The notes under the pieces were generated by a model, which was given only the letters and a program-made list of their open reading frames with translations, was not told where the DNA came from and did no database searches. Positions 1,241 through 56,767 of a stretch of DNA of 64,000 nt are shown here, in pieces. The position numbers were made by a program, and so were the translations under genes. Source of the stretch: Lepidurus packardi (Eukaryota > Arthropoda > Branchiopoda > Notostraca > Triopsidae); NCBI GenBank assembly GCA_023053545.1, contig JAKZAN010000004.1, positions 2,108,001 to 2,172,000 of the forward strand, written 5' to 3'. Position 1 is the stretch's first letter, and every line of letters begins with the position of its first letter.

Positions 1241-1305
1241 GGCTCTTCGTACCAGCCGTGCAGGAAGCCTCGGGTTGGTTTGGAACACAAGGATGGCTTA
1301 ACACA

Positions 1306-2215: not shown

Positions 2216-2341
2216 GTATTCTCATATTCGTGCCTTTTTCCTTGTTTGTTTTCAAAACAGATACCCCGCCTTGTTTTTCTGTTCAACCTATATTTCAAAT
2301 TTAATTTTGATACTTTTCCTTCTACTTTCTATATAAAAAAA

Positions 2342-3649: not shown

Positions 3650-3650
3650 T

Positions 3651-4718
3651 ATGGAAGCTTTGAACGAAGAAATTAAAATATGTAGTTTAAATGTCAGAGG
3701 ACTGAAACAATCGATGAAACAAAAACTGATGACAAGCTTTATAGAACAGTATGAGCTAGATGTAGTGTGCCTTCAGGAACTCAATACGGATTTCAACCCA
3801 AATCCTGATAGGTTCAATCTTATTTGTGATGTGGGACCTGGAAAACCAGGTATAGGTATTCTCTATAGAAGGGAATTCGAATTAAAAAACTTTAAAACCT
3901 CGACGACAGGTAGAATCTTACAAGCAGTCTTTCAAAACTTTATCGTATTAAATGTCTATGGCCACCCAGGGAATCACCCAGCAAACGAGAGAAATGAGCT
4001 TTTTAACATATTTTTACCAATTTACCTTAAAAATGAAAACATACACACAGTCTTAGTGGGCGATTTTAACGTAGTAATAGACGGAAAAGACGCTACTACC
4101 CCGCGCATGAATGATTTCCTAAAACGTGCAATAAACGGTTTTGAGCTAGTAGACGCATATCGCCTTCAATACGCGCTAACGACAGACTTTACATTCATCC
4201 ATTCCAAAGGAGGAGCCAGACTTGATAGGATTTATTTGGGCAAAGGTTTAAAAAATAACTTTCATAAAATAGAACACACAACTTTCGTAGGATCGGACCA
4301 TAAAGCGGTTATAGTAACACTCAAAGGCACTCTTGAAGACATAACAAGAGAAGAAATAAGACGAAGACCCAATAGATGGCACCTAAACCAAGATATATTA
4401 AACGACCCGCGCTTCGTCATACACGTTAAGGAACTAGCTCAAGAGTTTACTACCCGATTGGATCCAAAGAAACCATACATAAGGTACTGGAATAATTTTA
4501 AGAAAAACATTCAGTTATTTGCCAGGAGCCTCCAGCAAGAAATTAAATTGAGCAGAATGCACTAAGAGCCTTTTACAAGAGCTGTTTCGATGAGGCAAGC
4601 GAGAACGTCAGTGCCAATGCAGGGAGTTGGGAGGATTTTGTATACTATAGACAGAAATTGAGAGAAATGGAAATACGCCAAATACAGGATGCATTATACA
4701 AGAGCCTCGGCTCTGCAG
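3651..4718 (+). pseudogene. LINE ORF2 5' part, APE endonuclease
   Basis: The frame opens with MEALNEEIKICSLNVRG and shows the apurinic-endonuclease signatures of LINE ORF2: SLNVRG, VVCLQEL, VLVGDFNVV and a GSDHKAV motif near codon 215. It is open to 4565. The same protein then continues in another frame (AFYKSCFDEASENV to DALYKSLGSAES) up to about 4718, so there is one frameshift near 4560. Reverse transcriptase and everything after it are absent: the sequence passes directly into a Helitron on the other strand. The endonuclease would nick target DNA to prime reverse transcription. This copy cannot do so on its own. Confidence 0.85.
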
Positions 4719-7700
4719 AATCCAATGGCTTTAAAATCATTGTATATGGCAGTGGAGGTTTCGGAAATTCAAAGCGACATTTGTTATTTTTACCTTTTCC
4801 TTTACATGTAAAGGAATGCTTGTGTTTCTGTACTTCTTTTGCTATAGATGCTGAAGCGCCAGATAATTCGCACGTGACGTAGCAATCAACAAAACGGATT
4901 AAGCTTTCCTCGTACGACAATTCGTCTTGAAAATCAGTGGGGCACGGCTGATTATGACACCACACGAACATATGTATGTGAGGAGACCCGCGCTGTTGAA
5001 ATTCCACGCGAATTGCATAATCTTTAAGTTTACCGACTGGTTCCGTAGAGTTTCGTAAAAATTGTAATAGTATATCTACACGGTAGTTAAAATACCTAGC
5101 ACAGGTAACACTGTCTTTCAATAAACGACACTTATCCAACCAAGTTAACGAGAGAAGCTCTTCCTTCGTATAAGAACGACCATCAACTGTTCTTCCTAAT
5201 ATGCGTAAGAGTTCTAACCATCTAGTTTCAGCGGCTGAAAAGCTGAGAAAAAAAGCCGGTGGGCCAACTTGACGTATCATGGCAAATAAATCATGACACA
5301 TACGCTGGTAATAGGGAGGTGATCCACGGACGCATCTTAAGAAATTAAAACCTCCATCGAATTGTAGTGAGTGCAAAATTTCTGGATTTTTAAACATTTT
5401 AGCATTAAATGTGGTACCCGGTTTTCTATCCTTTCCTTTGACAATACGTGTTGCGAAACGCATAGTGTCCGCTATCTTTTTAATCTGTATCTTCTTGAGT
5501 TTGAAGAAAATATTAACCTCGTCTTGAGCAACACGACGGTCAACATTCTGTAACTCGGCCTTGCAAAGAGAACTATAGGAGACCGGTCGACAACGATAAC
5601 GGCGCCCTTGTAATGCAATATTGCAATCAATATTATCCAACGATGCTAGTCTAGAGTCTTTCTTAACATACACGGGCCTGGCATATCCGCAGAAAATATG
5701 CGGAAACCCCAGCTCTTCACAGTATTTATCAGTAAGCACACCGAATGGTCTTTTGTTTTCTCCGGGTGCTATGGAATGAATTACATCGTCACCCTCACCG
5801 TGAAGAAAGTTTTCATTTAGTAATACAGTATCCATGTTTACTCTAGCAATGTCTTCAGAATCCTCTTGGTCACTACTACCGTCACACAATTCGTTTTGTG
5901 ATAACGTAGTGTTCTTATCATCTTCATGTTGCACTGATCTACCGTCAATTACGCATTCTTCCGCACTTATGTGCGGCAATTCTTCTTCCGCTACAAACTG
6001 CCAGTTTTCTGCCAAAGAAATACCATGTTCAATAAATAATGGGCGTCTTACCAACAACTCTGCTGCGTAACGAACTAGATTTGGACGTACAGTTTCCACA
6101 AATTCAGGGCGAGTATATTCTAGTTTTCTTTTTAGAGCAACTTTTATTGTCTCGAAGTCACGAAACGTGCGAGGTAATTCGGTTATAGTTTCGTCTATGT
6201 CATGAGGTATATTAATTACATTTCCCTTCAGTTTCGATTGCCCACCCTGGCGTTGTGGCTGCAATTTTAAGAACATGAGACGGGGAGACACTAGCCTTCT
6301 TTCCATATCATTTAAAACTGTAAGCTCGTCCGGTCTTTCCGGGAAAGAAACTTGGTTTAATACAGATACTGGAGGTACTTCGCCTTTTTTTATATACTTA
6401 TAACAAGTTCTGCAAACATATTGTTTATATACCGAAGTGAAACATTTTTCAAATAAATTTCTTGCACGATGACCTTCCTTGCCAGTTAACGGTTCTACGT
6501 TTTTCCGCAACATTTCTACTGTACATAAAGTGCGTCTAAAAAATAGCTGACAGCAACAACCACAAACAAAATCGGCTCCCTCAGCAAGTAAATTTTTCAG
6601 TTTTCGCATGACTTTATCTACGGATTCAGTTTTAGTCTCTGTTGTCGTGCAAGTTTCTGTCGCGCGACTGTCTATTGAAACCGTATCGAAACATTTTAGT
6701 GTATTGTGGTAGTCAAGATCCTTCCGAGTACGGTCAATGGTTCTTTGATTTCTATGACAAAAGACCTCAGGGTGCCCTTCATGCGAACAACTACATATGA
6801 TTTCATTAGAAAAGCAACTGAGGCATCCCCTTTTAGCGTCAACAATACAATCCAGTGCTAGGAAACAACAGTTTTCGATTCTGCAGGGAGTCACAGCTAA
6901 AACTAGTGAATATATCGTAAATTCATTCGAATCGTTCCATCCTATGAAACATTCATGTATTATACTCGGAAATTCAGCTACTGTACTGTTCCTAATTACG
7001 GCACACCTATCGTACGACGTGCAATAAGATCCACAACTACGCGTGCTATTGTGACTACAAAATATGCTTAAAACGTTATCTTCTGTTCTGCAGACGGCAA
7101 TGCAATAACTCCTATATTGTATAACGAAATAAGTACCCTCGCGCAACGAAAGACTGAAATAGGTACTAAATTGTGAAGGCGAAACAGTTGTGCACAATAC
7201 CTTTGAGAAATACGTGTAAGACAATCCGATGTTAGGAATGCAAAATTTACTAGGAAAGTTGTCAACAGATATCCGAACATTGTTATTAGCAAATAAGTTG
7301 TATACAATTATGCCTACTTTTCGGATATTTCCAATCATGTCTATATCCGCAAGTTCATTGTTATGTAAGCCTCTAGCTGTTGCGTAACGCAAGAGCAGGA
7401 AAACAATGCTGAGGGGCACAGACTGGTCACATTTTCTAGGAGAATAGAAGTTCTCCGCGTAATCAACACCTTTGCATAAAACCAAATGTCTGGTAAAATT
7501 GTCTCCGCTTTCAAACTGTACGTTACAATCGTTGCACTTTAAATGTGTGACACCGAAAGATAAAAACCGACAATTACGTACATGTTTTCGAAATACTCGT
7601 TCTCGAACAAAGACTACACCGCAACCTTGGCACAAGAAATTTTTAGTCTGGCTACCAGAGGAAGAATTACAAGTACTTTCAATATTGTTTACCATTAAAT

Positions 7701-9216
7701 TCGTAGTTCTCGGGAGCTTAGATTGACCAAGACTAAATTCTAGATAACCCTCCTGTCTTGTCTGCTCGCCTTTAGTATTATTCTTGGTAGTTCGGTTATT
7801 CGAACTTTTGATCACCTCTTGTACAGACGGACTAGAGAAAAGAACGGGACACACACACAAATGTCTGCGTAAATTAAATGAAGAAAATAACGCCTGGCTG
7901 CAGTGTTCACATGTAAACTCTTGCACATTACTGATCACAGGCATTTTGCTGTCAACTATTCCTTTATTGCAATTACGTCTTTGCAAATGTCTGTTAAAGT
8001 TGTAAACAGAAGAAAAATGCTGATGACATGAAACACAGTCAGTCCTTTTACTAGAATTACCAGCTTTACATAATGCTAAATGTCTGCTCAAACCACGGCG
8101 CGAAAGAAAAGTTCGTTGGCACGTTTCGCAAACAAACTGGTCATGTTCACCTTTTTTCTCAATGACAGGTTTGTGGCGTCCAAATTCTACATGTCCTTTT
8201 TCTCCTGAAAATGAATGATCAAATGCAGATATGTTTGAATCACCTTTTGAATCGTCAACGATCAGAGCAAACGGCTGTGGTAACGTTTCTGTGAGATCCT
8301 TGGCCAAATTAATGCAGGGAGAAACACCGTTTCTATCTTTCGAACAATCTTCCATTACTTCAACATACTTTAATGAAACTTCAGAGTTATTTTTTTTAGC
8401 ATGTTTTATTGTTAAACTCTCATCAACTTCGTATTTCCGTTTTCTCAGAATATTCAAATTATTCTTGGTATCAAATTTCGATGTCGAAACATCTACTAAT
8501 TGTGGGTTAATATTAATAGCATTCAGATCAGTCCAATTACCCGATGAGACACGTACATGATTACATGCAACCCGACTGCACTTATCTACAGTTGTCAACG
8601 TATCATCCGGTCGTGCACCCCGAATTTCATGACAACAAATAGGAACAATATCATACTGTGGATTACCACTGAAACCATACATCCTCCGTAAATACTCAAG
8701 CAGTTCATCAAAAGTAAACTCTAACAGGACGGCAGTACCGCTTGTGCAACGCTGACCAAACTCATCACGCGCATGCGAGTCAAAAACAAAATATCTTCCA
8801 CTACGCTCCATGATACTAGTACAAAATGAGCAACTAATAAAAAGCACTCCTACACAGTGTTCCGCAAGCTTCACTGCATCTTCCAAAGACCAATGCCAAT
8901 AACGTGTTGTACATGGCCATATAAACCCAAAAGCATCTTCACCATGCACAAAGGTCTTTAATACACCTAAATCTCCACAACCAACAAATCGAGGCAATTC
9001 TGAAAAGCTAAAGAATGCATGAGCGTGCTTATACGTACGATAAATCTCGTCTCCAATTGACATTATCTGGTGCATGTCATGCTCAATCCAATTGGCAGGG
9101 AAAACAAAATAACTCCATGCAATAGAAACAAAAGCCATGGGTGTGCATTGTACACCACGACTTTCACTCGTACCAACCGAATCTTGTGAATATCGAGCCT
9201 TGCAGACGAGCCTCAT
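4645..9216 (-). CDS. Helitron Rep 5' half with peptidase-like and zinc-finger regions
   Basis: One frame of 1,523 codons, MRLVCKARYSQ onward. In order: a papain-like segment (residues about 20-200) with GVQCTPMAF as candidate Cys site and YFVFDSHARDEFG as candidate His site, as in the deubiquitinase-like domains of some Helitron proteins; five Cys-rich fingers of C-x2-C...H-x(3-4)-C type (such as CETCQRTFLSRRGLSRHLAL); a segment around RLVSPRLMFLKLQP typical of Helitron proteins; then the Rep N-terminal domain with FFLSFSAAETRW and the HUH motif RGSPHIHMF near residue 1414. Rolling-circle Rep tyrosines and the helicase should follow, but the frame leaves Helitron similarity at about 4725 and its last residues are antisense LINE. 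The long frame without stops suggests recent loss of the 3' half. Confidence 0.85.
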   Translation of the reverse strand: MRLVCKARYSQDSVGTSESRGVQCTPMAFVSIAWSYFVFPANWIEHDMHQIMSIGDEIYRTYKHAHAFFSFSELPRFVGCGDLGVLKTFVHGEDAFGFIWPCTTRYWHWSLEDAVKLAEHCVGVLFISCSFCTSIMERSGRYFVFDSHARDEFGQRCTSGTAVLLEFTFDELLEYLRRMYGFSGNPQYDIVPICCHEIRGARPDDTLTTVDKCSRVACNHVRVSSGNWTDLNAININPQLVDVSTSKFDTKNNLNILRKRKYEVDESLTIKHAKKNNSEVSLKYVEVMEDCSKDRNGVSPCINLAKDLTETLPQPFALIVDDSKGDSNISAFDHSFSGEKGHVEFGRHKPVIEKKGEHDQFVCETCQRTFLSRRGLSRHLALCKAGNSSKRTDCVSCHQHFSSVYNFNRHLQRRNCNKGIVDSKMPVISNVQEFTCEHCSQALFSSFNLRRHLCVCPVLFSSPSVQEVIKSSNNRTTKNNTKGEQTRQEGYLEFSLGQSKLPRTTNLMVNNIESTCNSSSGSQTKNFLCQGCGVVFVRERVFRKHVRNCRFLSFGVTHLKCNDCNVQFESGDNFTRHLVLCKGVDYAENFYSPRKCDQSVPLSIVFLLLRYATARGLHNNELADIDMIGNIRKVGIIVYNLFANNNVRISVDNFPSKFCIPNIGLSYTYFSKVLCTTVSPSQFSTYFSLSLREGTYFVIQYRSYCIAVCRTEDNVLSIFCSHNSTRSCGSYCTSYDRCAVIRNSTVAEFPSIIHECFIGWNDSNEFTIYSLVLAVTPCRIENCCFLALDCIVDAKRGCLSCFSNEIICSCSHEGHPEVFCHRNQRTIDRTRKDLDYHNTLKCFDTVSIDSRATETCTTTETKTESVDKVMRKLKNLLAEGADFVCGCCCQLFFRRTLCTVEMLRKNVEPLTGKEGHRARNLFEKCFTSVYKQYVCRTCYKYIKKGEVPPVSVLNQVSFPERPDELTVLNDMERRLVSPRLMFLKLQPQRQGGQSKLKGNVINIPHDIDETITELPRTFRDFETIKVALKRKLEYTRPEFVETVRPNLVRYAAELLVRRPLFIEHGISLAENWQFVAEEELPHISAEECVIDGRSVQHEDDKNTTLSQNELCDGSSDQEDSEDIARVNMDTVLLNENFLHGEGDDVIHSIAPGENKRPFGVLTDKYCEELGFPHIFCGYARPVYVKKDSRLASLDNIDCNIALQGRRYRCRPVSYSSLCKAELQNVDRRVAQDEVNIFFKLKKIQIKKIADTMRFATRIVKGKDRKPGTTFNAKMFKNPEILHSLQFDGGFNFLRCVRGSPPYYQRMCHDLFAMIRQVGPPAFFLSFSAAETRWLELLRILGRTVDGRSYTKEELLSLTWLDKCRLLKDSVTCARYFNYRVDILLQFLRNSTEPVGKLKDYAIRVEFQQRGSPHIHMFVWCHNQPCPTDFQDELSYEESLIRFVDCYVTCELSGASASIAKEVQKHKHSFTCKGKGKNNKCRFEFPKPPLPYTMILKPLDSAEPRLLYNASCIWRISISLNFCL

Positions 9217-40195: not shown

Positions 40196-40427
40196 CGTCT
40201 TGGTGAACGTCAAGCTCAAGGAAGTCGAAGACAAGAAGAACCCAAAAAACAACCAAATTGTGAGTCAAACTCAACTCAATTTTATTTAATTTATAATTAA
40301 TATTATCGTATCAAAATTAAGCTTGACTGATTGAAATCGATTTAATCAATTATCATCAAAGTAAAACCTCAAAGTAAAACTTAATTAGTTAATTTGAATC
40401 CGTTATTAACGCATTTCGCATTACGGT
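40196..40427 (+). promoter_or_regulatory. 5' flank of the split transposase-like gene
   Basis: AT-rich 230 bp before the ATG at 40428, with TCAACTCAATTTTATTTAAT and TAATCAATTATCATC words. No TATA box can be assigned with confidence and no inverted terminal repeat is identified for the gene downstream. Confidence 0.3.
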
Positions 40428-42444
40428 ATGGCTTCAAGTTCAACTTCAAGTCCTGATGTTAATGATGATGACCGTATTGGTCCGTTCTGTGATGAAATAG
40501 GGATATTAAAGAGTCACTTGAAGACGTTGGATACTTGGACTTCCATTTCCATTGCCAGGCCGAAACCTTTTTTAAGTAATGGAGTCGTTCTTGAGCTTAA
40601 TAATCTTTTTCTGGAGCAGTCTAAAAGAAAGCATGCGAAGCGAAAAGATTTTTTAAGCTGGATCGTGTCTATTTTTTCACTGGAAGTGGAAGGTAGTTCT
40701 AGAACTAGATTGAACGTTAGTGAAGAAAACTTGCTCAGGTCATTAGTTGCACAAGCTAAAAAGCTGAAGATGGGTTTAATCCGCTTGATGAAGATTGACA
40801 CCAGTTGTCCGGGAAAATTAGATACAATCGAAAATTTCAAGAGACAGCCATTCGAATTTTTTAACTGCAGCAGTAATAATAGTACCAGTAGTTGTACACA
40901 ACCACAAGCATCTGCAGGTAATGGTGGTAGTAGTAAGCTTTCACAGCCGGCTGTGCTAACTGAGGATAATTTTGCTCTGTCTGACTCTGATGCTGAGTCT
41001 TCTTCACAGAGAAGAAACGCGGTTTCTCAGCCTCAGGTTGTTAACCCCTCTTCCCATAGACAGATTCCAAAGCAGGCAATAAGTATAAATCACAATTGCT
41101 CTTACAGGCAAAAGTTTCGCAACTTGTATAAAAAATATTTCGCTTTATGCAAGCGCTTGCAGAACAATGATCGTGAAAAGCAAAAGGCCTGTCAGTTACA
41201 CGCTGTTTTGAGAGGGAAGAATGCGGAACTCATAAAAGCTCACAAAAAAATCAGGGCTTTGGAGAGGAAATTACAGAATGAGAAAGATAATTTCAGACGG
41301 GAAAAGGATAACAATCGTCAAAAACTTAAACGCAACGAAGATACCGTTAGGGATTTAAACCAAAAGTTAAGCGCTTCTTTTTCTTCGCCAAGTGCGCAGT
41401 TAGTCAAGGATTTGCTTTCCTTTGGGCCTACGAATAATCCAGAGTTAAACGAAGAGCAATTAAACGTTGAGCTAGAAGAAAACCGGCAGGTGAAGTTTCT
41501 AAACGAAGACGGCAGGACGTACAATGCCATGACTCATCGAGTATTCATGGAACTACGTAGTTTAGGTATCGGGAGTGAGACGGCCGTAGAGTGCGTCGAA
41601 ACTGTTGCGCGATGTCTAGGGTTGGAACTAGATCAGCTGCCGGGGAAAACGTTTGTCAAAGAAACGATATACAAAGCTCGCGTTCTTTATATGCGTCAGC
41701 TGGCAGAAGTCATAATGAGTAAAGGCGATAATGCCACCTTGGCTTCGGACGGCACCACCAAGTATGGCAAGTCTTATCAGACCTTTATTTTGTACTTTAT
41801 GGATAAGCAGAAGTTGGTGTTGGGGCTAACCGAAATTGCTGACGGCAGCTCTGAAACTATTTTGAAAACATTAATCGACATTTTCACCGAAATAGCGAGT
41901 TATTCTTCGCACATTCCAAACTTTGTAGAGCAGGTAGGGACTAGAATAGTTAATACTATGAGTGATCGTGCTCAGAACGAGAAAAAATTTAGTCGGTTGC
42001 TTGCTAACTGGAAGCTGCAATGTCACGCCAAGTTGGACCAAGGGTTTCAGGAATTGCCTATTGACGAGCAGAATAAATGCGCTCGAGTTAATGAATTTCA
42101 TTGCGGTATACATACCCTTGTTGGTTTTTCGGATGCTGCCAACAAAGGTCTGGCTCAACTTGAAGCAAAGAAATTCCAGGGAACAACGCTAGGTTCGCAA
42201 TTAGTGCCAAATTTTTCAAACACCGAAGGCGAATCAGCCGCAGTTCGTTTTATCCGCACTTTCTCGCAAATGGTGCACTCCAGAGGAGACGAGAAGAGCG
42301 GCAAAGCTGCCAAGTTTAAGCAGTTCTTGGCTGAAAAGCCCTTCCAAATTCAGACCCTACCTTTAGCTAGATTTGTTGGTAACCGGTTCAACATTGTCTT
42401 CTACAATGCTGCTGGCCTATATTACTTGCTTAAGAAAGGTGCCG
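40428..42444 (+). CDS. Transposase-like gene, N-terminal half (unnamed DDE-type family)
   Basis: An uninterrupted frame from MASSSTSSPDVNDDDRIG. Residues 1-130 are helical, 130-230 are S/N/Q rich, and 230-320 form a long coiled coil (KKIRALERKLQNEKDNF). Residues from about 370 form a catalytic-like region: TLASDGTTKYGKSYQTF, GLTEIADGSSETILKT, NTMSDRAQNEKKF and NEFHCGIHTLVGFSDAAN, which reads like a D...D...CxxH RNase H-fold core. It ends LARFVGNRFNIVFYNAAGLY and LLKKGA where the CACTA element begins. The frame formally runs to 42470 inside the insert. Homologous frames are widespread in invertebrate genomes as repeats. The superfamily is not one I can name with confidence. The C half lies at 55326-56767. 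Confidence 0.65.
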
Positions 42445-42488
42445 CACTGTTAAAAAGGGGTACCGATTAAAGGCAAAAAGTGGCTACC
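42445..42488 (+). repeat. CACTA left terminal inverted repeat
   Basis: Begins CACTGTTAAAAAGGGGTACC and ends GTGGCTACC. It pairs with 55281-55323 in inverse orientation, perfectly for the outer 12 bases and at most later positions with small length changes. Confidence 0.8.
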
Positions 42489-43170
42489 TAAAATTGAAAA
42501 TTTTATTAAAAATTGGTACATGCCATCAAAAGATGGGCTAAGCCTACCAACTAAAGGGTAATGGCTACTGAAAAACGGTGGTTTCTGCGTAATTTTCGGC
42601 TAGTTTCTACCAAACATAGGTAATGCTTACCAAATAACGGTAGTTCTCCTCCCAAAAATAGTTTGTCAGATCGCATTAAATGACAAGATGTTTTCCTTTA
42701 TTCAGTATAGACTGGAAGCACCTTTAACTATTGCGGAATGTATTCTGCAAACATTTTCCGCGATCCGCATTCATACAAGACAAAAACTGGAAAAGACATA
42801 GCTTGTTTAACTAACTTTCGTAACTTAATCCGCGAGTCTTAGCGATCGGATTACGGTACTTTCTCTACGCACTGTGGGAAAAAATCTTTAGGAAATGTTT
42901 TTGTCCGACATAGCATTTTTTTAGTTTTAGTGGGTAATTTTAAGTATTACCCTTTGTTGTGTAATTTGTTGCACTAAATATTGATGCCAAATCATTGCTA
43001 CTTAGCAAACTTGCAAATCCATAATAGTCATATGAAAACTGAAATAAATTCAATACAAGAATGAAGAAAGAGAACAATAAAGTGGATGAGGTTATACGGA
43101 TACAATAAAAAATGCGCACAAATGAGAGCAAGTTCTTCAGCGAAAACTGAAAGAAAATCAAAAGAAAATA
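42489..43170. other. CACTA left subterminal region
   Basis: Short GGTA/TACC-type words occur about every 15-25 bp to 42660 (GGTACATG, CCTACCAAC, GGGTAATGG, CTACCAAACATAGGTAATG, TTACCAAATAACGGTAG) and again at 42935-42955. Such subterminal arrays bind the transposase in CACTA elements. AATAAA on the minus strand at 43171-43176 lies 49 bp after the transposase stop. No gene. Confidence 0.55.
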
Positions 43171-43224
43171 TTTATTGAAAAATGTAACTCCGCCACATCA
43201 CAACGATAAATAAGTATTAACACA

Positions 43225-46200
43225 TTAATTGAAAATCATATCTAGTTTGGTTTTGGAAACGACAAAATATGTAGATTTAATCTTGTTTGGGTAACAATCG
43301 TTTGGAGTGTCTAGACACTTGTGTGCGTGTCGTACTCTATAGTCTTGTAATCCTTCTGAAGAAATCAAAATTTCAAGTGAGTCTCGTCGGTTGCAAATTC
43401 TGTAAGCCGGCATATGATGGTCGTAATATTCAGTGTCAAATAACCGGCAACAGAATGCATATACGCCACGGAACAAGTAGATGTTAACGAGTAAACCAAA
43501 CTGCCAACTCCGTGTGCCCTGTAACGGACAAACCAGGACAGCTTCATTGCATTTATACAGCTGGCATCCCCGTTTGATCCAGCGGAAACTTTCTAATGTT
43601 CCGTTCATGTGGTTCATTTTGTAGAAAGCTGCGACTTGTCCTATGACGATATAATATTAAATGTTAGGTATACAATAGATCTTTATTTTGCTCCTGTTTA
43701 GTATATACCTCCGCTTTTAATCGTCGAAAGATGAACACGTGACGACTTCGGGCTGACAGATGTTTCCATTTTTAGTAAGTTTTCATTGGTGTTCAAATTC
43801 ATACACTGCCACTCTTGGTGCCGAACACTCAATGTATATGGCAGATTTTTGAACTGACCAATTTTATGTACCAGACGTTTAAAATATGAATGTTTAGCCT
43901 CGTACCTCATGCACCAAAAAGACCCTAGGGGTCCCAAGCGGCGTATGTACGAGGTGTAATGGATAAGAAAATGTTGCTTGGGGGTAATATTTCGCATGAA
44001 AATTTCTTTGAAACTCGACAAATACTCGTAAATTAAAAATTCGAGGGAAAACAACTCGTCTTTTGAAATTTCGTCCTTGAAAACAAACTGACAAATTTCT
44101 AACAGACCAGTAAAGCAAATCCACGCTTTGTCACACTTTGGAACAAATTTTCCTATCAGGAGAGGAAGAAATACGCCTAAAAGCCATAGCTGTGTCGCAC
44201 TTTGTCTTAATTTCCTCTTTTTGATATGAACCATTTCAACCGAAGAAGGCTTGTCTGCTTTTTCGCTACCACCCCAATGAAAGTTGGAAATGGAAGAGTT
44301 AAGTTGATCAATGTTAAAATATTGTTTCGTAGCTATACACCTAGAAAGAAGCTCGCAAATCGTAAGAGACAAGCATCCCTCTAATACAGGGGTCGGCAAC
44401 CTTTTACCCAACGCGGGCCAGAACAAATGCATGGAGGGTAGTGGCGGGCCGGATTAATCCTTTGAACTACTAATTCAAAATTCAGCCGTAATAAAATTTT
44501 GGAGGATCAGGAAAGATGTTTATTTAATCCGAAATGTGCTTTATTGGAAGAATTGTCTGTATTTTCAATTTAAAGAGACAATAAGTTCAGTGCATTGCAT
44601 TACTCTTATAATGGGTTCGATATTCGTTTTAACATTGATTTGACTTAGTTGAACTAGAATTAATGTGACGCTTGGTGCTGTTTGGCAGCTGAAAGTTTCT
44701 TCATATCACACGACATGCCAGACGATGCCAAGTGCAGTACGTCGCCCAAATGCTCGTCAGTAATTCGATTTCTCAAATGATTTTTTGTGTGTTTCATTTT
44801 TGAAAACAATTGCTCACACACGGAAGTGCTACCGAACATCGATGCCATCCTTTTGGCGTAATTAGTTAAGTTCGGGTGACTCCCGGACTCAAGAAGATAC
44901 TTCTTGTAGAAATCTGTTAGTGGTACACCACCTGCATTGAATTTTGATTTCAACACATCATTACATTGCAACTCAATGAGCTCCATCTGAATATTATCCG
45001 GAACGTTATTTACGTCGACATCAAAAGGTGTACTAAACATCCTGAAATCGACTACGTGTGATCGGAGATCAGCAAAACGTGAGGCAAACTCGCTTTTTAG
45101 AGTGCGGATCACTGCCACAAATTCGCAGCTTTCTTTTGGGTTTCTTTCCGCGAGTGTAGGAAAATGCGAATAATTAGACTTCTCAAGCTGGTTTTCCCAC
45201 AATCGAAGCTTTGTTTCGAATGCAGTAACGTGGCTCCACATTTCATGGATCAGTTGATTTTTTCCTTGAAGCTGCAAATTCAGGCTGTTCAAATGCCTCG
45301 TTAGGTCGACTAGAAACGCGAGGCTTGAAAGCCACGTTTGATCCCGAAATTCTTTGGCGTTCATGTTTTTGCTCTCAAGAAAGCCAGCTATTTCTTCACG
45401 GAGGGAATACACTCTTCCTAGCATAGCACCACGACTAAGCCAACGAACATCACAGTAATAAAGTAAGTCTCCATATTCATTCTCCGATTCGGACAAAAGT
45501 GTTCGAAATTGACGATGATTTAAACCCCGAGACAAGATTACGTTGACCGTTTTTACAGCCACGTCCATTACTTCATTCAGATTCGATGTTTTGGCACACA
45601 GTGCTTCCTGGTGTATGATGCAGTGTATCTTTGTGACATCGTGAACGATTCCGAGGCCTTCCATATGTTTCCTAAGTAAGGCCACGACGCCTTTATTCTG
45701 TCCGACCATAGCCGGAGCTCCATCGGTTGTTACGGACACAAGCTTTGTCAAGTCCAAATCGAGATTCGAAAAACACTGAAGCAATGCTGCCAGAATGTCC
45801 TCTCCTTTGGTAGTACCCTTCATAGGTACCAGTTGTAGGAATTCCTCGACAATTTCGAAGGTTTCAGTAACTCTGCGTATAAATACTGCAAGCTGTGTAG
45901 TATCAGTGGCATCAGTGCTCTCATCAAGGGCTATTGAGAAGAACTGAAATTCCTTGCAACTCTTTCTTAAATTGCTTTTCAGGTCAGCTGATATTTCTTC
46001 AATTCGCCTCGTAACGGTTCTCGCCGAAAGGCTTACATTTGAAAAAAGATCCTTTTTCTCCGGACATACTATGTTTACAACGGCCATCAAACACTTTTTT
46101 TACAAAATCACCATCTGTGAAGGGTTTCATTTCCTCTGCTATAAGTTTTGAGACAGCAAAACTCGCAAGTGTGTTTTTCTCAGATTCTGAGTTCTGATTC

Positions 46201-48377
46201 TTAAATACCAAGCTTTGCTTTTGCAGACTACGACTGAGTTTAGCAATTTCGTCTTTTCTTAGTTGACCGGTAAATTCAGCGTGGTTAGAATGATTAGCCT
46301 CGTAGTGTCGCTTGATGTTGAACTCTTTATGAACGGCAACACTTGCCTGGCAAATGAGACATATAGGTTTTCCGAAATGATGGACAAAGAAGTATTGATC
46401 AGTCCAGCACTCTTGGAAATTGCGACATTCGGTATCAACTTTTCGACGCTTTGCTGACATTTTCCCAGAAAGTGGAAGAATTTGCTACAGTATCACAGAA
46501 AGTTGGCTACTTTACTATCACGAAAGTGAAGCACAACGAGGCGAATCCACTATGAATAGCCGCAGAACGCGAACGTGGCAGCGTCAAGCTAAAAGTGGAA
46601 CTGGAACAGCGAAATCAGTTCAAAATGCTAATAGTAGGCTTCACGGGCTACACTGTGCTGAGCAGACTAGACTAGGGTTGGATTCAGATGTTTTGCGAAA
46701 ATCTTTTTAAAGGAACGACGTAGTCAAAACTTATATATTAGTTTATAAGGTACCGCGGGCCGGATGCATGTAATATTTCACCCGTGGGCCGCGGGCCGGA
46801 TAAAATGGGCTGGCGGGCCGGATTCAGCACGCGGGCCGTAGGTTGCCGACCGCTGCTCTAATATATCGTGCATTATGTCTGGGACAAGACCTCCGATTAC
46901 ACTAAAGTGCTGCAACTGGTTGAAAATGGAGTTGAAAGTGACTCCGTACAAATCAGAAAAATGTTTTGCAGCTTCTGTATCCAAGCCTTGACATTGGATA
47001 CCGTGATCTTCCTTGGTACGAGGTGGAAACTCAGAATGAGTGAACTTCGTCTGTATCTCCTCTCGGGTACCGAGACATGTACGGCAAGAGCGAAAACTGT
47101 TTCCAAAGCCTTTTTTAAATCCACCGACAATATGGCTGGCAAGATTGTCGGCAGAGATAGCTACAAGGGTACCGAAAACGTTTTCTGTACTGCCATTTAT
47201 TTTCATGTTCACGCCATTCTCGAGTTTCTTCAGATCCTCGACTATTGGTTCTAACATTTTGTTAATACTATAGGTACTGAGCAAATTGTTGTAAAAAATA
47301 GAAAGAAGGTGAATTTGCTTTAAACAAGACTTGAATTTCTTTTCGATGTTGCCTATGCTAAAATACACAAGGACAAGTTTATGTTTTTTGCTTCCTAATG
47401 GATTACAGAATTCTACTTCGTCCAGATAAATATGCAACTGGAGAGCATTAGGATGCTCAGCGAAAAAAGGATTGTCAGAATATTCTGTCCCGTCTTCGAA
47501 AACAGAATAAAGCCCAGGAACTTTATTTTTAGCCTTCATGACACTCGCGTATATCTCTTCCCTGCCCAAAAGCTTTGTCAGCATGCCTAGCAACGAGACG
47601 TACACGTAACTGCGACGAACAATTTGATTTTTGTTCGTGCGCTTGCCATTGAAGTGTTCGGGAAGTACAGGGAGATAAACTTTGTTTGGGCTGACCATGC
47701 CAAGCTCGTCTGCGAAGTAACGCAGGCGGGAATGCTGCGAGCTTATGTGTTGGAATAGATCATTGGTTGGAACCAGGGGTAATGAATCTGTATGACTACA
47801 GCCAGCTTCTATAAGAGTAGAAATTAAGCTCTTCAATGTTTCTTCAATCGCAATGGTAACAATTTCTTGTGTTCCTGTCATGATTGCTTCCAAATCTGCT
47901 TGGTTGAATTTCCTGTCATGAAAAAGCTTAAGGACAAATAATGAAGATGACTTTTCTAACGAAATCTGATCGTTGTCGCTTTTATTTGCATCGGCGTTAG
48001 CGTTAGGTTCCTCGTTTTCTTCAATCGAATCTCCAACGCCTATTCAGTCAAACAGTTTGTCATATTTTAAGAATAATTATAATTATCGAATTTCGGTTAC
48101 CGTCATCTAATTCCATATCAACGTGGGATGTTTCATTCCTGTGCAACACTTCTGTGGTTTCTTCAAAGCAGCTGTGGTGTATTTTCATATGTTTGTACAA
48201 ACCACTTCTACTAAGGAATTTTTTCTTTTGAGAACAGTTTTCGAATAGACAGGTGCTTTCAAATTTTGGGTCACGTCGGTGTGCAACACTATAATGCGTA
48301 AGTAGCATTTGTTTGTCTACGGCAATGAAATTGCATGTGCGAATTTGACACTTGTAACTGGAACACGCTGCTTCCAT
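43225..48377 (-). CDS. CACTA/EnSpm-like transposase with C2H2 fingers
   Basis: Exons 48377-48101, 48039-43709 (interrupted by the hAT) and 43640-43225 join in phase; without the hAT and one target copy they give 849 codons including stop. Exon 1 (MEAACSSYKCQ) has two C2H2 fingers (CNFIAVDKQMLLTHYSVAH; a second ending YKHMKIHH). Exon 2 starts in an acidic linker, then has IYLDDVEFCNP-like LHIYLDEVEFCNPLGSKKHK, VAISADNLASHIVGGFKKGF, SCRTCLG, and VPDIMHDILEGCLSLTICEL, the candidate D, D and E sites. It goes on to HFLIHYTSYIRRLGPLGSFW and MRYEAKHSYFKR. Exon 3 has a beta-rich C-terminus (GLLVNIYLFRGVYAF). Poly(A) signal at 43171-43176. Family named from remembered animal EnSpm-like proteins; no search was possible. 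Confidence 0.65.
44387..46855 (-). mobile_element. Complete hAT element (ZBED/GTF2IRD2-like)
   Basis: 2,469 bp flanked by a perfect 8-bp duplication CTCTAATA (44379-44386 and 46856-46863). Ends CAGGGGTCGGCAACCTTTT and, inverted, CAGCGGTCGGCAACCTACGG form the classical hAT inverted repeats with GCGGGCC-rich subterminal sequence. It interrupts the CACTA transposase codon stream between DIMHDILE and GCLSL. Excision leaving one target copy would keep that frame as shown by the flanking codons. One transposase gene inside on the minus strand. Confidence 0.93.
44660..46460 (-). CDS. hAT transposase
   Basis: The N-terminal frame starts MSAKRRKVDTECRNFQECW at 46460 with a BED-like finger (CLICQASVAVHKEFNIKRHY). 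The main frame (46090-44660) has the hAT core: FFSIALDESTDATDTTQLAV (first Asp), VSVTTDGAPAMVGQNKG (second Asp), IHCIIHQEALCAK (C-x2-H), and the C-terminal dimerisation block STSVCEQLFSKMKHTKNHLR. The two frames differ by one base at an A-run near 46090 (GTAAAAAAAGTG), so a single frameshift is the only visible defect. About 580 residues in total, normal for ZBED/GTF2IRD2-type hAT proteins. Confidence 0.88.
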
Positions 48378-48576
48378 TTTAAACAGACTTAAGTAACTAA
48401 TCTTTTTAGTAGGGATCTGCAGCTGCTTAATCAAATGAAAGTTAGAAGGTCTGATATAAATCACGGTGTGTTTTCAAACACGTTAGTAATATTTATTAAG
48501 GCCTAAGAAGAACACATAAGCATGTCCTTATACTGCGTTCAGCCAATTCTGGAATTCGCTACAGTGGCGCTTCTTG
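48378..48576. promoter_or_regulatory. CACTA bidirectional promoter region, left part
   Basis: The sequence between the transposase start (48377, minus) and the SAMD3-like start (52663, plus) is only about 500 bp once the LTR element at 48577-52353 and its target copy are set aside. It must hold both promoters. It carries an AAGGCCTAAGAAGAACACAT word and no clear TATA box. Confidence 0.45.
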
Positions 48577-49131
48577 TGTGGAGAACGATCATTTTAAACT
48601 TAATTCCGATGACTAAGCAAGACCACATTTCGCTGACCACATTTTGACAATATTTCGCCGACTTATAATTCTCAGCTCATATCCAGGCTGCCGAGCGTCA
48701 GATCACTAGCTAATTTCCTTCTCACGCATCCGGTCCATCTGTTTGTTTTGCCCGAACATTCCCTCAGTTTATAATTTAGCCCATTCAGCAGATTCCACGC
48801 CAAACATGTATATAAACGCTTGTAGCGAGATAGAACTGGCTCCCCCGCTAGGGAGAAAGAGGGCGAGGGGGCTCAGTCGCTCTCAGTCTCTCGCTATCTG
48901 TTACGCTCCCTTTTTCTCTCTGCCCAGTTAGTATAAGTTATAGTTTTCAATCTTGTTAAAACGTTTGTGACATATGGACGACCTAGTGAATTATTGACTT
49001 AGTGACACGGCTTGTACCGACGAAAATATTGAATAAAGTTGTACGGGATTTTACCGTTGAGCGAAAAAAGAACTCACAGCCTTCCGCCCAACCGCTCAAA
49101 ACAATTTAATCGCCCAAAACAGTTTCCTACA
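48577..49131 (+). repeat. 5' LTR
   Basis: 555 bp, pairs with 51799-52353 with about two mismatches. A TATATAAACG box at about 48810 and AATAAAG at about 49033 fit promoter and poly(A) positions inside an LTR. Confidence 0.92.
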
Positions 49132-51798
49132 ATTTGGTGTCAGAAGTGGGATTCGCGTTAAAATACCGGCAGTTCAAATAAGTTTCCAATTAGTGCAAGT
49201 GTCCCACCTAGTTCAAAATCGTTCAAATTATTCAAATAGCCCAACGTGCCACAGTTCCACCGAAGTTTAAAAAAGTTTAGTTTTGTACGAATCCATTGTG
49301 CCTAAGATGACGCCAACTCCTCCACCACCCGTAGGTGGAACAGGTACTGTAACACCCCCTATTAATCCTATTTTTCTCCAACCACCCACCACCTCGCTCC
49401 AGAACACCACGACCACTACGACCTCTACGACCACAACCATGAATACGACCACTCCTGCTACACGTCCACGCTCGATGACCTTCCTGGGACAACCGATAAG
49501 CGACCCAACTATTTCAACCCAACCCACGACTAGACCAACAACTCCCACCAATGAGTCCGTGCAAACCATTTTGAACCAACTTCCTATATATACCGGCGAT
49601 TCTAGAATAAAGAACTGGCTAAAAAAAATTGTCGCTCCTCCTCGTCGCCTACGCGGGGGACGAAGAAAGAATATTGCGGGCCATACCAACCCGACTCGAC
49701 GGAATAGCGCTAGAGTACTACGAACTCCTAACCCTGGAAGTACAAACTGAATATCCAAAGTTCAAAGAGGCTTTTTGAAGCGTTTCGGAAAGTTACATGA
49801 AGAAGCTTATAGACCACCACCCACCCAACAGCCCAATGAGACTATTGCCGACTTTGCTCAGAGACTTCTTGTAGAATCCGTCGAATTGTTCCCCCACCTG
49901 TATGCCCAGTCCACTGCAAATTATGACGGTGCACAAGCCGCATTAGACGGAATGAGGGCGCAAACGTTCCTAAAAGGAATTACCGCAGACCTCCGCAGGG
50001 CAGTGCTTAGGACCGTCGGAAACGAGGCGACATTTGATGAACTCGTTCAGGCGGCTCGAGTGGAAGAAGCTGCACTCGCCAGTACTAGCGCAGACTATCA
50101 TGGATTAGAAGCCGAACTAGCCCAACTTACTTTACAAATAGAACAACTAGTAAAAGCTCAACAGCAAACCCCAACCCACGCCGCTGCTGTAAATCTCCCC
50201 CACAACAGTTCGGATGTACGATATCGAGATCCAATCCCGCCGAACAACTACCCTTCCAACCCACAGCCCACCTACTCAAAACCGCCCGGAAATAATAGAG
50301 GAACACCCATACAACCCTTGATGCAGATGAACGTTCCCCGTCCCCCTTTTGCAGATCGACGTCAACCAATGCAGTTCGAGGGTGCTCGCTATAACGAGGG
50401 TGTTCGCAATAACGCACAACCCTATCCTTATAAACCTACGACCAACCGGAACTCTAACTCCTATAACCCTGATCATCAAAGCCGCCGAACGCAAGAAGAC
50501 CAACCGATCTGTCATTTTTGCAGAGAAGAAGGCCATATTGTCAAATACTGCCCAAAATTAGCCCAGCAGTTAGCCCACAAATGGGGTTTCCAGCCTCCAT
50601 ACCCCCTCCCCACAATTGATCAACAACGCGCTATGGAAGAGATCCTATTTGGAAACAGGCCAAAAAACTAGGACGAACCACCAGAGAGGGTCGGTGGGAA
50701 AGGAAAAAGTATCCTCAAACGTTAAATGGAAACACCCCGACCAGTACTACTGACCCAAACTTCAAACCCCAATCAGTTGACCAAACCCCAATCTACAATG
50801 ATATCATCGCAGAAATTTCCATGGCTACAAAACCCCAGTAGTACCAGTAGTCGTAGGTAATTTGTTGCTTACCGCTCTCGTCGACAGCGGAGCAGGACTT
50901 TCCCTATTGAACGAGAACGTCTTTTTAGCCCTTCAACAGTCCGGTCATTCCCTTCAGACCATTTCAGCCGATGTTAGATTATTCTCGATCAGCAATGCCG
51001 AACTCAAAACTGGCGGAGTTTACGAAACTGAAATCTCCATTTTAGGCCGCCAATATGCTCACCAATTCGTTGTTAGCTCACAAATCAACTATGACCTTGT
51101 GCTTGGCATAGACTTTATCTGCAAGCATGGCCTAGTTATAGACGGCAAAGATCAAATGGTCTATTTTCCTCCTGTGAGTAGCCCAGACGCTTCCAATCCT
51201 GGTCACCAAACCGATCCTTTACCGAAAACCATAGTGGAACCAAATACCTGCTCTCCCACCCCGATTTTACCAAGCCCTCGACCAACCAACAATCCTGTTA
51301 AAGAACTTGTCCAAACCGTAGAACCAGAAGATGAATTTGCTCCTTTTCTCGCCGAAAATAAACAAATATCCCAACTCCCAAGCCACCGAATCTTCCTTCA
51401 AAAGGATGTAGTCGTGTCACTACAATTTACGTGTCACATCAATTTAATGGCCGAATAGAGACGCTAATGATCATTGGGACTGCCATTTGTTTAAGCTTGA
51501 CCACAGGCATGATCATAGGCGGGTACCTTATTTGGAAAGCTACCAGAACGAGCAACCCCGTTGCTGCTGACTTAGAACACCACCCAATGACCACCCGAAT
51601 CACGGAATTGATTATGGAAATTGAAGTCCTAAAGATGAGACAAGACCAACTGAAACAATTTTTGGAAGACGAATTGAAGGCGGCCAAACGAAAAGTAGAT
51701 GACACAGAACGACAAATAGACCGAAAAACTTAATCCCACTCACCTAGCCCATAAGAAAACCTGTACTACGGGACGTAGTCTCTCAGAGAAGAATGCGA

Positions 51799-52353
51799 TG
51801 TGGAGAACGATCATTTTAAACTTAATTCCGATGACTAAGCAAGACCACATTTCGCTGACCACATTTTGACAATATTTCGCCGACTTATAATTCTCAGCTC
51901 ATATCCAGGATGCCGAGCGTCAGATCACTAGCTAATTTCCTTCTCACGCATCCGGTCCATCTGTTTGTTTTGCCCGAACATTCCCTCAGTTTATAATTTA
52001 GCCCATTCAGCAGATTCCACGCCAAACATGTATATAAACGCTTGTAGCGAGATAGAACTGGCTCCCCCGCTAGGGAGAAAGAGGGCGAGGGGGCTCAGTC
52101 GCTCTCAGTCTCTCGCTATCTGTTACGCTCCCTTTTTCTCTCTGCCCAGTTAGTATAAGTTATAGTTTTCAATCTTGTTAAAACGTTTGTGACATATGGA
52201 CGACCTAGTGAATTATTGACTTAGTGACACGACTTGTACCGACGAAAATATTGAATAAAGTTGTACGGGATTTTACCGTTGAGCGAAAAAAGAACTCACA
52301 GCCTTCCGCCCAACCGCTCAAAACAATTTAATCGCCCAAAACAGTTTCCTACA
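51799..52353 (+). repeat. 3' LTR
   Basis: 555 bp copy of 48577-49131, followed by CTTG, the same four bases that precede the 5' LTR. Confidence 0.92.
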
Positions 52354-52662
52354 CTTGTATCCCATGTATTAAACCTGCATCTCAGTGTTTCCTTCGTCTA
52401 ACTTAACCTAATCGTCGCTAGAGGCGGTACTGCAAGAAGTTTCAATATACGCTCATTGCATAGGACACTTCTTGTAAAAACGTACCTCAGACGCCTTCCA
52501 ATTCAAAGCCATTAGTTCGAAAAATGTCATAAACCTAATTTCCTTGCCTGAATTCTGAAGTACTGGACACTGGAGTGGGTATTTATTAAACGTTACCGTT
52601 TGTGCCATTAAAAGAAGTTGTCTTGCGTACTTCTCCCATTTTTAGAACCCCTGTCGCATTGT

Positions 52663-54753
52663 ATGGTGAAAAAAATGGATAAATTCGTTATACTCATTGT
52701 TGAGGGAATGGACTTCGATATTACTTTCCCATCAAAAAACGACGCTTCTGACGTGGATCGTCTGAAACAGGCAGTTTCGTCAAAAGCAAAAGCTAGTAAA
52801 GTGTTGAAAAATGTAATGGATGGAAAGGAAATTCGTTACTTCGAATGTGAAAGCAAGCTTATTGCCGGTCGGTGGACTGTTCTCGAAGATTCCTCTGTTG
52901 TGGACAACTATGCAATATTGCGTTGCATACTTGAATGCACCGCAGTAGTTCTCCCTTCAAAGACGGCATCTACGCCGCCTATTTCTTCAGTGATTGGTAA
53001 GCTTTTTACATTTCTAACAAGTTAAAAAATACTAACATAATAGAATCTCCTTCGTATACATTTCCGTAACTGAAAATTCTCGAAGATTCTGCGAGCAATT
53101 TTAATGAAGGAAATTCACAAACACTCGAGAATGAGGTTATCATTTCCGATCTTGGTACATTGGAGGGCGAAGAAGATGTAATTGAAATGGAAATAAATTC
53201 ACACGAGTTTTCGGCTTCGGTTAAAAGAGGAATCATTTTTACATACAATTTTTTACTATTTAATTAATAAAATAAGTACAGGTTTTGAAGATGGAGGTAA
53301 AGATAATGTTTACTTGCGCCGTCCAATACCAAGCACGAATAATCTGCCCAATTACTTTGGGATGAAGATAGACAGCAAATTGAAGAAAGGAACTGCTTTG
53401 ACCTTTCCGGAGATGTCGAGTGTAGTTCGGCAAGTTGTCGACTCATGTCGCCCTATCCACTATCCGACGTCTGTGAGCGTTTTGGAATTGGCTCAACGAC
53501 TTTTGAAAACTTACCCTTCGTTGGCGGTAGATCCGACTGATTTTTCTACGTCAACGGTAAATTGCGATTTTGAATACTGAACGCTTAGTATTTAGAATTT
53601 TTAGAAAACCCTGAAGTACCAGCTAACTAGGCGATTCCAACGTGTAAGGCAAAAGGCCTGTATTAGTAAAGCGAAAAAGAAACTTGCGGCTAAGACTAAC
53701 TCCACGCCCAATTCTGCTGTTGAAATAACAAAGAAGAGTATATTCACGATTATTTTCTTTAACATTTCGTAACAAGGAGCAAATCTTAAACTATTCGTTT
53801 TATCAATTATTACAGAAGATCCTGTTTCGTACAAGAGAAATGTCGCCAGTATGTTGGATCTGTATAAGATGAACGTAGTTGGGGAGGAAGTAAAGGTCCT
53901 TTTGAAATTGACACACAATGATCGTAGGGCAGACATTACAAGTGGCTCCGTAAAATCCATTGCTGAAGTGCAGGAAAGCTGTCCTTACCTCTGTCAAGAG
54001 GTCTTCGTAAGTACACATTTTACGCATATTACGCGCCGCAAAGGTTCTAAAAAATGTAAAACATTTCAGCTATTCTTGGAGCTGGATTTATTACTGGGTG
54101 ATGGAACGTCAGCAAGGTTTAAAGAAAATTGGAAAAAAATAGTTCCGAAAATCTTGCAAGTTGCGAAACAACAAATGACAAAATCTTGTGACTGTGTTCT
54201 TCGTCGATACATCAATGTGGAAGAAGACTTCGGTACGTAGGCTTGTTTAGATCTTTTAAAGAATCATCAAATACAAATTCCGGGTTATTATTGTGCATTG
54301 CAGATGTCGCCTCACGGGCTGCCCTTGAGTTACTGCCGATTTTGCTGAGTACGTCTAAAAAATTTGCTAAAATGGGAAGATTATTATATGATCACAGACA
54401 AGTATGTCTCTTTTAAAATAACTTTAATTTTCTACAATTCGTATTCATGTTTTTCAAAGGATAAAGCCCTGCCCTCCATCATCGCGGAGAAACCGGTCCG
54501 CACTACGCCTTACATTGTGTCGATCGGAGGCTCGCTAACTCTTGTGGCTGACCAAAAACCCGTTCTAGCCCCTAGTGACATGCAGAGCGCATTAGTGTGC
54601 CTCATGGCCACCTATTATGTCTATAATATTAAGTACGCAAGCGGAATTAAATCAGCTCTTCTGTCCCTTCAAGGCACTTGTCTCGAGATTGCGGATGACG
54701 AATTCCGAAAGCTGGATTCCATTAAAGTGTTGTTACGACAATTGGGCAACTGA
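52663..54753 (+). CDS. SAMD3-like protein carried by the CACTA element
   Basis: Eight exons join in phase: 52663-52996, 53086-53154, 53282-53556, 53605-53737, 53816-54006, 54070-54232, 54304-54401 and 54460-54753, giving 518 residues with introns of 48-127 bp. The N-terminus (MVKKMDKFVILIVEGMDFDI) looks like a small beta/alpha domain. The rest follows the conserved region of SAM-domain-containing protein 3-like genes: LPNYFGMKID, LTFPEMSSVVRQVVDSCRPI, KTLKYQLTRRFQRVRQK, SMLDLYKMNVVGE, LELLPILLSTSKKFAK, TTPYIVSIGGSLTLVAD. A SAM domain itself is not evident. Poly(A) signal at 55133-55138. Using the acceptor at 53085 avoids the TAA at 53067, so the gene looks intact. Its role in transposition is unknown. 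Confidence 0.7.
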
Positions 54754-55280
54754 ACACGACTACTGAATCGGATGTCTTGCCAGTGTCCGCCGTGATATTC
54801 TGCAGGAGCGTCGATATTTGGCCCTGAATTGTTACGCATTTTATAGGTTGTGTACCCCTTATCTGTTTATCTCGTTACTTTTTTCACTTTAATGTCCCTT
54901 GGGCATATATTTACCCAGTGCCATGCGTTTTTCTTTGTGTTGTTTAGCTTTGTAATTTATGTCGTTGACGTTTTGATTATCTAGTGCAATGCAATGCAAT
55001 ACAATTGAATGCCTACCTGAAATGAGGAGTAATTAATGATACTTCCTTCGTCTAATTAAAGGGATGTCTTGCCCATAATTTATAGTGTATCATCTACTAT
55101 TTATTAGATCCCTTACTCAATTTTTGATATATAATAAACACAATTTTTGGTACTGAAATCTTTCAAATTTAAGTTAAACCAAACTTCTATTATTGGGTTT
55201 TGTTATACCGATTATAGGGGAACGCTACCATTCTCCGTTAATGGTAGAAAAATAGCCCCATCCTGGGACCCGCGATTTTC
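54754..55280. other. 3' flank and CACTA right subterminal region
   Basis: AT-rich sequence with an AATAAA at 55133 that probably ends the SAMD3-like transcript. From 55220 GCTACCATT, TAATGGTAG and GCGATTTTCGGTAG words repeat in both orientations, as at the left end. No gene. Confidence 0.55.
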
Positions 55281-55323
55281 GGTAGCGTTTTCGACCATTA
55301 ACCGGTTAAAATTTTTAACAGTG
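55281..55323 (-). repeat. CACTA right terminal inverted repeat
   Basis: Ends ...TTTTTAACAGTG on the plus strand, the inverse of the left end. The following CG repeats the two bases before the left end. Confidence 0.8.
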
Positions 55324-55325
55324 CG

Positions 55326-56767
55326 TGACAGATTTTTTTTAAATGCTGAAGGACTCCAACGATACAAATGGCCTTACTGAAGCAGTTTGTGCCGATTCGC
55401 AAGCTCCACAGTTGCAGGCTGAGGTGAGAGCTTTAGGTCTTGTTTATTACGCGTTTACTCATCCCTTGGAGAAAGACATGAATCAGGCCAAGCATATAGC
55501 CTACATGTCCAAGACGTACTCGTCTTGGCGAAATCAGCTTGCCCAATGGGACGAAGACCCTCAGCTTTTGATTCAAGGTTTACAAAACGAGCAAGGTGAC
55601 CCAATTTTAAAAGCTCTCGTGGATGATGACGCACTACTCGATGCCTTGACGCTTGAAAGTCTCGAGGTAGTGATAGCTAGAATCCTTGCAAAGTTTGATA
55701 CTTTATTGAAGGATCATTTGGAAGGGGGTAAGCATGCGGATATTTCTGCCGATGTACAGCTCATGACCCAGACCTCGTCTGTCCCAATCACGAATGTCGG
55801 TGTTGAGAGGGTATTTGGTCAGTTGGACTACTGGCTCAAATCAAAGCCCAGTGCTCTAACTCAACTTCATGAAAACATAGTCTGTTATGCCGAAAACGGT
55901 ACTGCGAAATGGTATAATCAGCAGCCGAAGGGAAGGCAGGCCGATTCGTTGGAGTTAGCCGTACAGAGTCTGAGTGGTCAGAAGAGCGACCGTGATAAAA
56001 AAAATAAGGCTCTATTGCAGAAACGACAAGAGAAACTTCAAGAGCGAATTGCACAGCATGCGAGTAAATACCGACGTGGAGAAGCTAGCAAAGACGAGTT
56101 AGCTCAGGCTATTGGCAAAATTGGTGGACTGTGGACCACAGAAGCCATGGTCGAGGTCGAACTCGGCAAGTTGCTGCGGGAAGTTGAGAAGCTCGCAGCC
56201 TTGCATACCCAGATGATGTATCGCAAGAAATGTTTGGTGGAAAGTAGCAAGGGGGGTTTATTGAATGTAACCAATGGCAAGAAAAAAAAAACCTTGGATG
56301 TTCTTTCTGCCAACCTTAAAAAATTCCTGGCGGATAACGTCGGATTCAATCAAGGATCCCACGCTGATGCCAGTGGTAATCTTTCGTACGCTTTTATCGA
56401 CCGTGCTTCTCTTCAGGCCATTAAGATGAACAAAGCCGGGAAACCAGATCCAAGTAGTAGCGAAGAAGCATCCACTTCTAGTCGCGTACTGGCTGATCTC
56501 CAGCTTGTTGGCAAAAGAGTGAAACACCAGTTTATGGAGAAAACACGGGAATTGAAGTGGTACGACGGCATCGCGAGTTCGTATGATGGAGATAGTGCTA
56601 CGCACTATATGCTCTATAATGGCGACAATAGTCTTTACCCTTACAAAAACTTGGTCTGCAACGACATGGCGAAGGGTAATCTTATTATTGTGACACCCGC
56701 GCCTGCTTTCTTTTGCAATCGCAGAATCAGCCACCTACTTTTTGACGACGCAGATGTTCCAGTTTGA
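55326..56767 (+). CDS. Transposase-like gene, C-terminal half
   Basis: Frame 55343-56767, MLKDSNDTNGLTEAVCADSQ onward, continues the gene that stops at 42444. It carries VRALGLVYYAFTHPLEKDM, SSVPITNVGVERVFGQLDYW (the SVP-TN-ERxF-LD block of this family), a lysine-rich coiled coil (QKRQEKLQERIAQHASKYRR), GGLWTTEAMVEVELGKLL and a chromo-like tail (ELKWYDGIASSYDGDSATHY). Placing it after 42444 with one CG keeps the frame, except for a TAA formed at the T8 run (55340-55342) right at the join. A further segment at 56788-56962 (MDTVNGEHTRFYVKYI) and the repeats after it may be its last exons. Plain DNA-transposon type gene. Confidence 0.65.

Follow-up and report, generated by a model that had tools for sequence, protein, structure and literature searches.

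The window, by which we mean the whole 64,000-nt stretch of Lepidurus packardi DNA that was analysed, contains a CACTA-type element at positions 42445–55323 carrying two genes, one encoding a transposase and one, gene 2, encoding a second protein. The element is 12,879 bp long counting two younger nested insertions; its siblings at loci L039 and L042, which are free of both, measure 6,620 and 6,513 bp, respectively. It begins with the terminal inverted repeat CACTGTTAAAAA (42445–42456, plus strand) and ends with the same 12 bases inverted (55312–55323, minus strand), and the inverted arms are 31 nt long and 77% complementary. A CG target duplication flanks it on the left (42443–42444, plus strand) and on the right (55324–55325). 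When the two flanks were joined at a single CG (361 nt), the full query (1–361) matched six other places in the genome at 99%, whereas the window itself was matched in two halves that share 2 bp. These and the other searches of the genome covered the 108.6-Mb assembly of 344 contigs, which holds at least 150 matches to the cuticle family PF00379; 14 control genomes have none, a contrast that fits an arthropod. Because the joined flank matches six empty sites, the ends of the element and its 2-bp duplication are fixed, in agreement with the inverted termini and CG duplication proposed in a preliminary description of this DNA. The element sits inside another multi-copy repeat with long frames (40410–42444 and 55326–56767), three other copies of which lie in a row on C5 with a spacing of 5,565 bp.

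The transposase gene lies on the minus strand and, like all gene models in this study, is predicted from splice signals and relatives. Exon 1 (48101–48377) encodes a zinc-finger-like arrangement of Cys and His residues that matches C2H2 only below the cut-off. Exon 2 is found in an upstream part (46864–48039) and a downstream part (43709–44378), and exon 3 with the stop codon occupies 43225–43640. The interruption in exon 2 is a nested hAT element (44387–46855, minus strand; 2,469 bp), foreign to the CACTA element, which is inserted at the HDILEG motif, is flanked by the 8-bp duplication CTCTAATA and has a Pfam Dimer_Tnp_hAT match slightly above the cut-off. Its inverted ends are 16 nt long and 94% complementary, and its coding part consists of two overlapping reading frames (44660–46099 and 45999–46484). 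Since the hAT element interrupts exon 2, the transposase of the window copy is broken: the 848-aa frame is obtained in the window only when the hAT element is left out, and is unbroken in the sibling L042. Altered bases at the corresponding site in L039 were considered as a possible hAT excision footprint, an explanation that was rejected because the site retains no extra bases. The acidic motifs YLDE, SADN and HDILEG, which we take to be the D-D-E residues, are common to the window transposase and to a distant transposase clade described below.

Gene 2 is encoded on the plus strand in eight predicted exons: exon 1 (52663–52996, with a second Met codon at 52675), exon 2 (53086–53154), exon 3 (53282–53556), exon 4 (53605–53737), exon 5 (53816–54006), exon 6 (54070–54232), exon 7 (54304–54401), and exon 8 with the stop codon (54460–54753), the last being the part of the gene with the most matches in the genome. 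Exon 4 encodes a basic linker (residues 222–268) with 15 K/R and 2 D/E residues. The predicted frame, 518 aa from the first Met and 514 aa from the second, is unbroken through all eight exons. Of the two complete genes reported in the preliminary description, gene 2 is thus open as described, whereas the transposase is split by a hAT element that the description did not mention. By eye, gene 2, putatively "SAMD3-like", recalls the SAMD3 and SAMD3-like proteins of animals in the order of motifs in its middle and C-terminal part; a Pfam search shows no SAM domain in it. No relevant match was found in a PDB profile search, and neither search recognised a DNA-binding domain. Pattern matches in viral (27) and bacterial (11) contigs included no relative of gene 2. 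Single-sequence structure models of stretches from the window were too poor for use (pLDDT 39.8 and 32.0).

The start codons of the two genes, at 48377 (minus strand) for the transposase and 52663 (plus strand) for gene 2, enclose the region 48378–52662. Most of this region is a nested LTR element (48577–52353, plus strand), also foreign to the CACTA element, with 555-bp LTRs that differ at 2 positions and a CTTG duplication. When this 3,777-bp element and the CTTG duplication are subtracted, the gap between the start codons is 504 bp, in line with the earlier estimate of a common region of about 500 bp. Gag-like and protease-like frames were recognised in the LTR element by eye. No long polymerase frame is present among its listed open reading frames, and it is therefore probably non-autonomous.

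CACTGTT is found at both ends of six of the nine clade 1 loci examined, namely the window, L039, L040, L041, L042 and L043. L044 has a single such end, L045 has CACTGTT only between its genes, and L046 has none. The CACTGTTAA termini are common to families whose transposases are ~57% identical. A 2-bp duplication flanks five of the six two-ended copies (CG, CA, TA, TA and TA), with no match at L042. In clade 2, L053 and L054 have CACTG-type termini at both ends; L054 is flanked by AAT/AAT, and the flanks of L053 do not match. These two clade 2 derivatives (L053 at 493–4958, 4,466 bp; L054 at 4412–8879, 4,468 bp) keep the transposase C-terminus and parts of gene 2, most of the transposase being gone. 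For clade 3, the distant clade, element ends were looked for and not found; CACTACCC, present in L048 and L050, was rejected as a terminal repeat of this clade, as it lies inside the transposase frame.

The subterminal zones of the window element are rich in GGTA/TACC on the left (42457–42660) and contain GGTA/TACC words on the right (55110–55311). Counted over the terminal 200 bp on the two sides, there are 15 such words versus 5.0 in dinucleotide shuffles, a count reached in 0 of 500 shuffles, which bears out the subterminal words noted earlier. Enrichment is also found in L039 (14 versus 4.5, 0/500) and L041 (10 versus 4.3, 2/500), is weak in L040 (3 versus 1.2, 57/500) and is absent in L053 (1 versus 0.6, 230/500) and L054 (1 versus 0.7, 256/500). 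In L053 and L054 the word CTGCA is abundant, this word having been picked from the data with no shuffle comparison. Since the element combines CACTG ends, 2-bp duplications and subterminal repeats, filing it under CACTA/EnSpm (CMC superfamily) is reasonable on its sequence features. The earlier EnSpm label agrees with these three characters. In the Pfam search of the transposase, DUF4218 appears only below the cut-off (E 0.0041 and 0.018) and Transposase_21 is absent from the matches, so that the transposase domain itself is a putative assignment.

Both end searches returned three copies of the window type: the window element itself, L039 and L042, the last two being 99.4–99.7% identical to the window outside gaps. 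None of the three has both genes whole. The window copy has an open gene 2 and a broken transposase, L039 has one stop in each of its two genes, and L042 has an open transposase frame in which one of three conserved acidic residues is altered, along with a deletion of ~106 bp in gene 2. In a cousin, L040, whose identity to the window is ~57% for the transposase and 43% for gene 2, neither frame contains a stop, and the element has CACTG ends and TA/TA flanks. In L043, nearly identical to L040, the transposase is interrupted by a stop and gene 2 by an insertion; L041 and L044 have stops in both genes, and L045 has a partial transposase and a gene 2 reduced to exon 1. The low number of window-type copies would be expected if gene 2 encoded a self-limiting repressor that holds copy number down, as would the retention of gene 2 parts in L053 and L054 after the loss of most of the transposase. 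Low copy number can have other causes, however, and the retention in these derivatives may trace to one deleted founder; we regard a repressor as unlikely.

The preliminary description suggested asking whether gene 2 recurs beside this transposase. Within this genome it does so at all 12 transposase loci of the CACTG clade, the clade of the window, always head to head (12/12, with L045 represented by exon 1 only). The 12 loci were obtained by a search with the C-terminal piece of the transposase (E 2.5e-30 or better, adjacent rows counted as one locus), to which L045, a short match at a locus that another transposase search had already returned, was added; a weak transposase match at C5:9665671 (E 3.9e-5) was left out of the count. 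The paired genes lie 1.2–12.9 kb apart between chosen points, the coordinates for the pairing test having been picked by hand from the search results. Other elements intervene between the genes in the window and in the pair at C1:3199421/3212284, where they were judged from the frames in L051.

A comparable association exists in clade 3, whose transposases are 25–35% identical to that of the window. Here a second gene is found downstream of the transposase, on the same strand and within 6 kb, at 16 of 21 transposase loci. It was modelled at five loci and comprises 466 aa in four exons, open in L047, L048 and L050; in L058 the frame is open for 458 aa up to the end of the locus, and in L057 the gene has begun before the locus ends. 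Copies lacking gene 2, which the preliminary description had named as contrary evidence, are therefore absent from the window clade (0/12). In the distant clade the second gene was not found by search at 5/21 loci: C6:216037, C1:11702188 and three on C11 (at 20443, 27458 and 34443, spaced by ~7 kb). The clade 3 second gene occurs without a listed transposase at four places, 4 of the 24 rows of this search having been merged into neighbours of the same locus.

Early exons of gene 2 with no adjacent transposase are found at three loci: L046, where the frame is open, L049, where exon 1 is out of frame, and C3:1073634, which is known from a search match alone. L046 (C3:6974500–6982500) encodes an open 510-aa relative of gene 2, with no transposase match and no CACTGTT or AACAGTG within 8 kb. 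It is the one locus examined that answers to the other kind of contrary evidence named earlier, a relative away from both transposase and CACTG ends. Compared in pieces, its gene 2 shares 60–82% identity with the gene 2 of L044, a paired element, and we tentatively read L046 as an orphan or recruited copy rather than as the ancestral state. It may thus be a gene that the host has recruited. At least 8 further places in the genome match late exons of gene 2 only (45–60% identity). At least 27 more match the last exon only (36–42% identity; L051, L053 and L054 excluded), and at 15 of these the open frame is listed as 107 aa.

The clade 3 second gene is homologous to gene 2. Comparison by hhalign gave a probability of 93.7 (E 1.8e-7) over 296 columns, covering residues 175–488, and a rerun scored 59.0 versus 15.2 when reversed and no more than 25.8 in 24 column shuffles. 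A SAM-like look of the clade 3 N-terminus, noticed by eye, has no support in Pfam or PDB profile searches. The presence of this homolog in another arrangement indicates that CACTA-like elements in this genome have carried the second gene for a long time, the arrangement of the genes having changed between tandem and divergent.

These data leave very little room for the view that the two genes are neighbours by accident or that a gene model is wrong. The models do depend on splice signals and relatives, but the same exon logic yields frames that are open in L040, in L046 and in the window, and the chance of pairing per locus is ~0.001 for the head-to-head arrangement and ~0.0006 for a downstream gene on the same strand. 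A captured host gene riding along with the element would account for the three gene 2 loci without an adjacent transposase, one of them open and without CACTGTT or AACAGTG. It is nevertheless improbable given the 12/12 pairing, the homologous partner in a distant clade with a different arrangement, and the fact that most other gene 2 places, among the matches listed, are matches to late exons only. Chance neighbourhood and capture were both rejected because of the pairing counts and the homology of the second genes.

To measure selection we used our own Nei–Gojobori script, with stop codons excluded. For gene 2, dN/dS was 0.302 between L044 and L046 (dS 0.60) and 0.239 between L040 and L046, the latter at a high dS of 1.69. 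For the transposase, it was 0.126 between L044 and L040 (dS 1.42). The clade 3 second gene gave 0.185 between L050 and L047, where dS is again high (1.57), and 0.487 between L050 and L048, a value based on only 11 nonsynonymous and 6 synonymous changes. In the other far pairs synonymous sites were saturated. No constraint was seen among close copies, where the numbers of changes are small: window–L039 (6 nonsynonymous, 1 synonymous) and window–L042 (4 and 1) for gene 2, and L039–L042 (10 and 3) for the transposase. By these estimates gene 2 is constrained between families, with dN/dS of 0.24–0.30. Because of the 12/12 and 16/21 pairings and this constraint, gene 2 is almost certainly an integral gene of a two-gene CACTA-type element. 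In all likelihood it serves the transposon and is no stray host gene, as the preliminary description had argued in setting it apart from captured debris.

Plant En/Spm elements have CACTR termini, a short target duplication and subterminal repeats. The Lepidurus element resembles them in all three, and also in having two proteins. In maize, two proteins, TnpA and TnpD, are required for transposition and derive from a single alternatively spliced transcription unit (PMC1636069). Here, by contrast, there are two separate genes; in one clade they diverge, and another clade has them in tandem.

We favor, with a probability of roughly 0.55, a two-gene animal CACTA transposon in which the second protein is a TnpA-like partner of the transposase. 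In such a system the basic middle part of the gene 2 protein would recognise the subterminal repeats particular to each family, and the protein would bring both ends of the element into contact; it might also act on the promoter region that the two genes share. Cutting and joining would fall to the transposase. The differences in subterminal words between families (GGTA in the window, L039 and L041; CTGCA in L053 and L054) fit a family-specific binding protein. The TnpA-like role as such, including binding to subterminal repeats, is drawn by analogy with maize, and we would give it even odds.

A regulator or a host antagonist would account for the pairing and the constraint just as well. Gene 2 could be an element-borne regulator or counter-silencing factor that shields the element from silencing by the host or controls its promoter, with no direct role in cut-and-paste, a reading that would also suit the position of both start codons at the borders of one 504-bp region. 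TnpA itself, moreover, is described as reactivating a methylated promoter (PMC1636069). However, Pfam finds no domain in gene 2 that points to chromatin, RNA or methylation, and the distant clade has no shared divergent region, since its second gene is in tandem. We consider a purely regulatory role possible, yet clearly less probable than that of a transposase partner.

Other elements share parts of this arrangement. SmTRC1 and the animal TRC elements have a CACTA-like transposase and share with the Lepidurus element a 2-bp duplication, reported for 7 of 14 copies, and the available portion of the same source reports no second protein shared among animal CACTA elements (PMC1636069). Harbinger-type Nuwa elements are likewise two-gene DNA transposons, encoding a transposase and a DNA-binding Myb/SANT protein (PMC12730594), but both the superfamily and the second protein differ from those described here. 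Among the papers listed by a literature search, judged by titles and abstract openings, none described a SAMD3-like gene, or any other second gene held in common, for CACTA elements of animals.

A separate, conserved partner gene in two transposase clades names the two proteins with which CACTA transposition of animals could be reconstituted. Beyond this, it is conceivable, and we suggest it tentatively, that the many "SAMD3-like" genes of animals represent an ancient CACTA second gene, old enough to have survived the switch between tandem and divergent order, of which vertebrate SAMD3 would be a putative recruited descendant. If true, this link would explain a multi-copy gene family.
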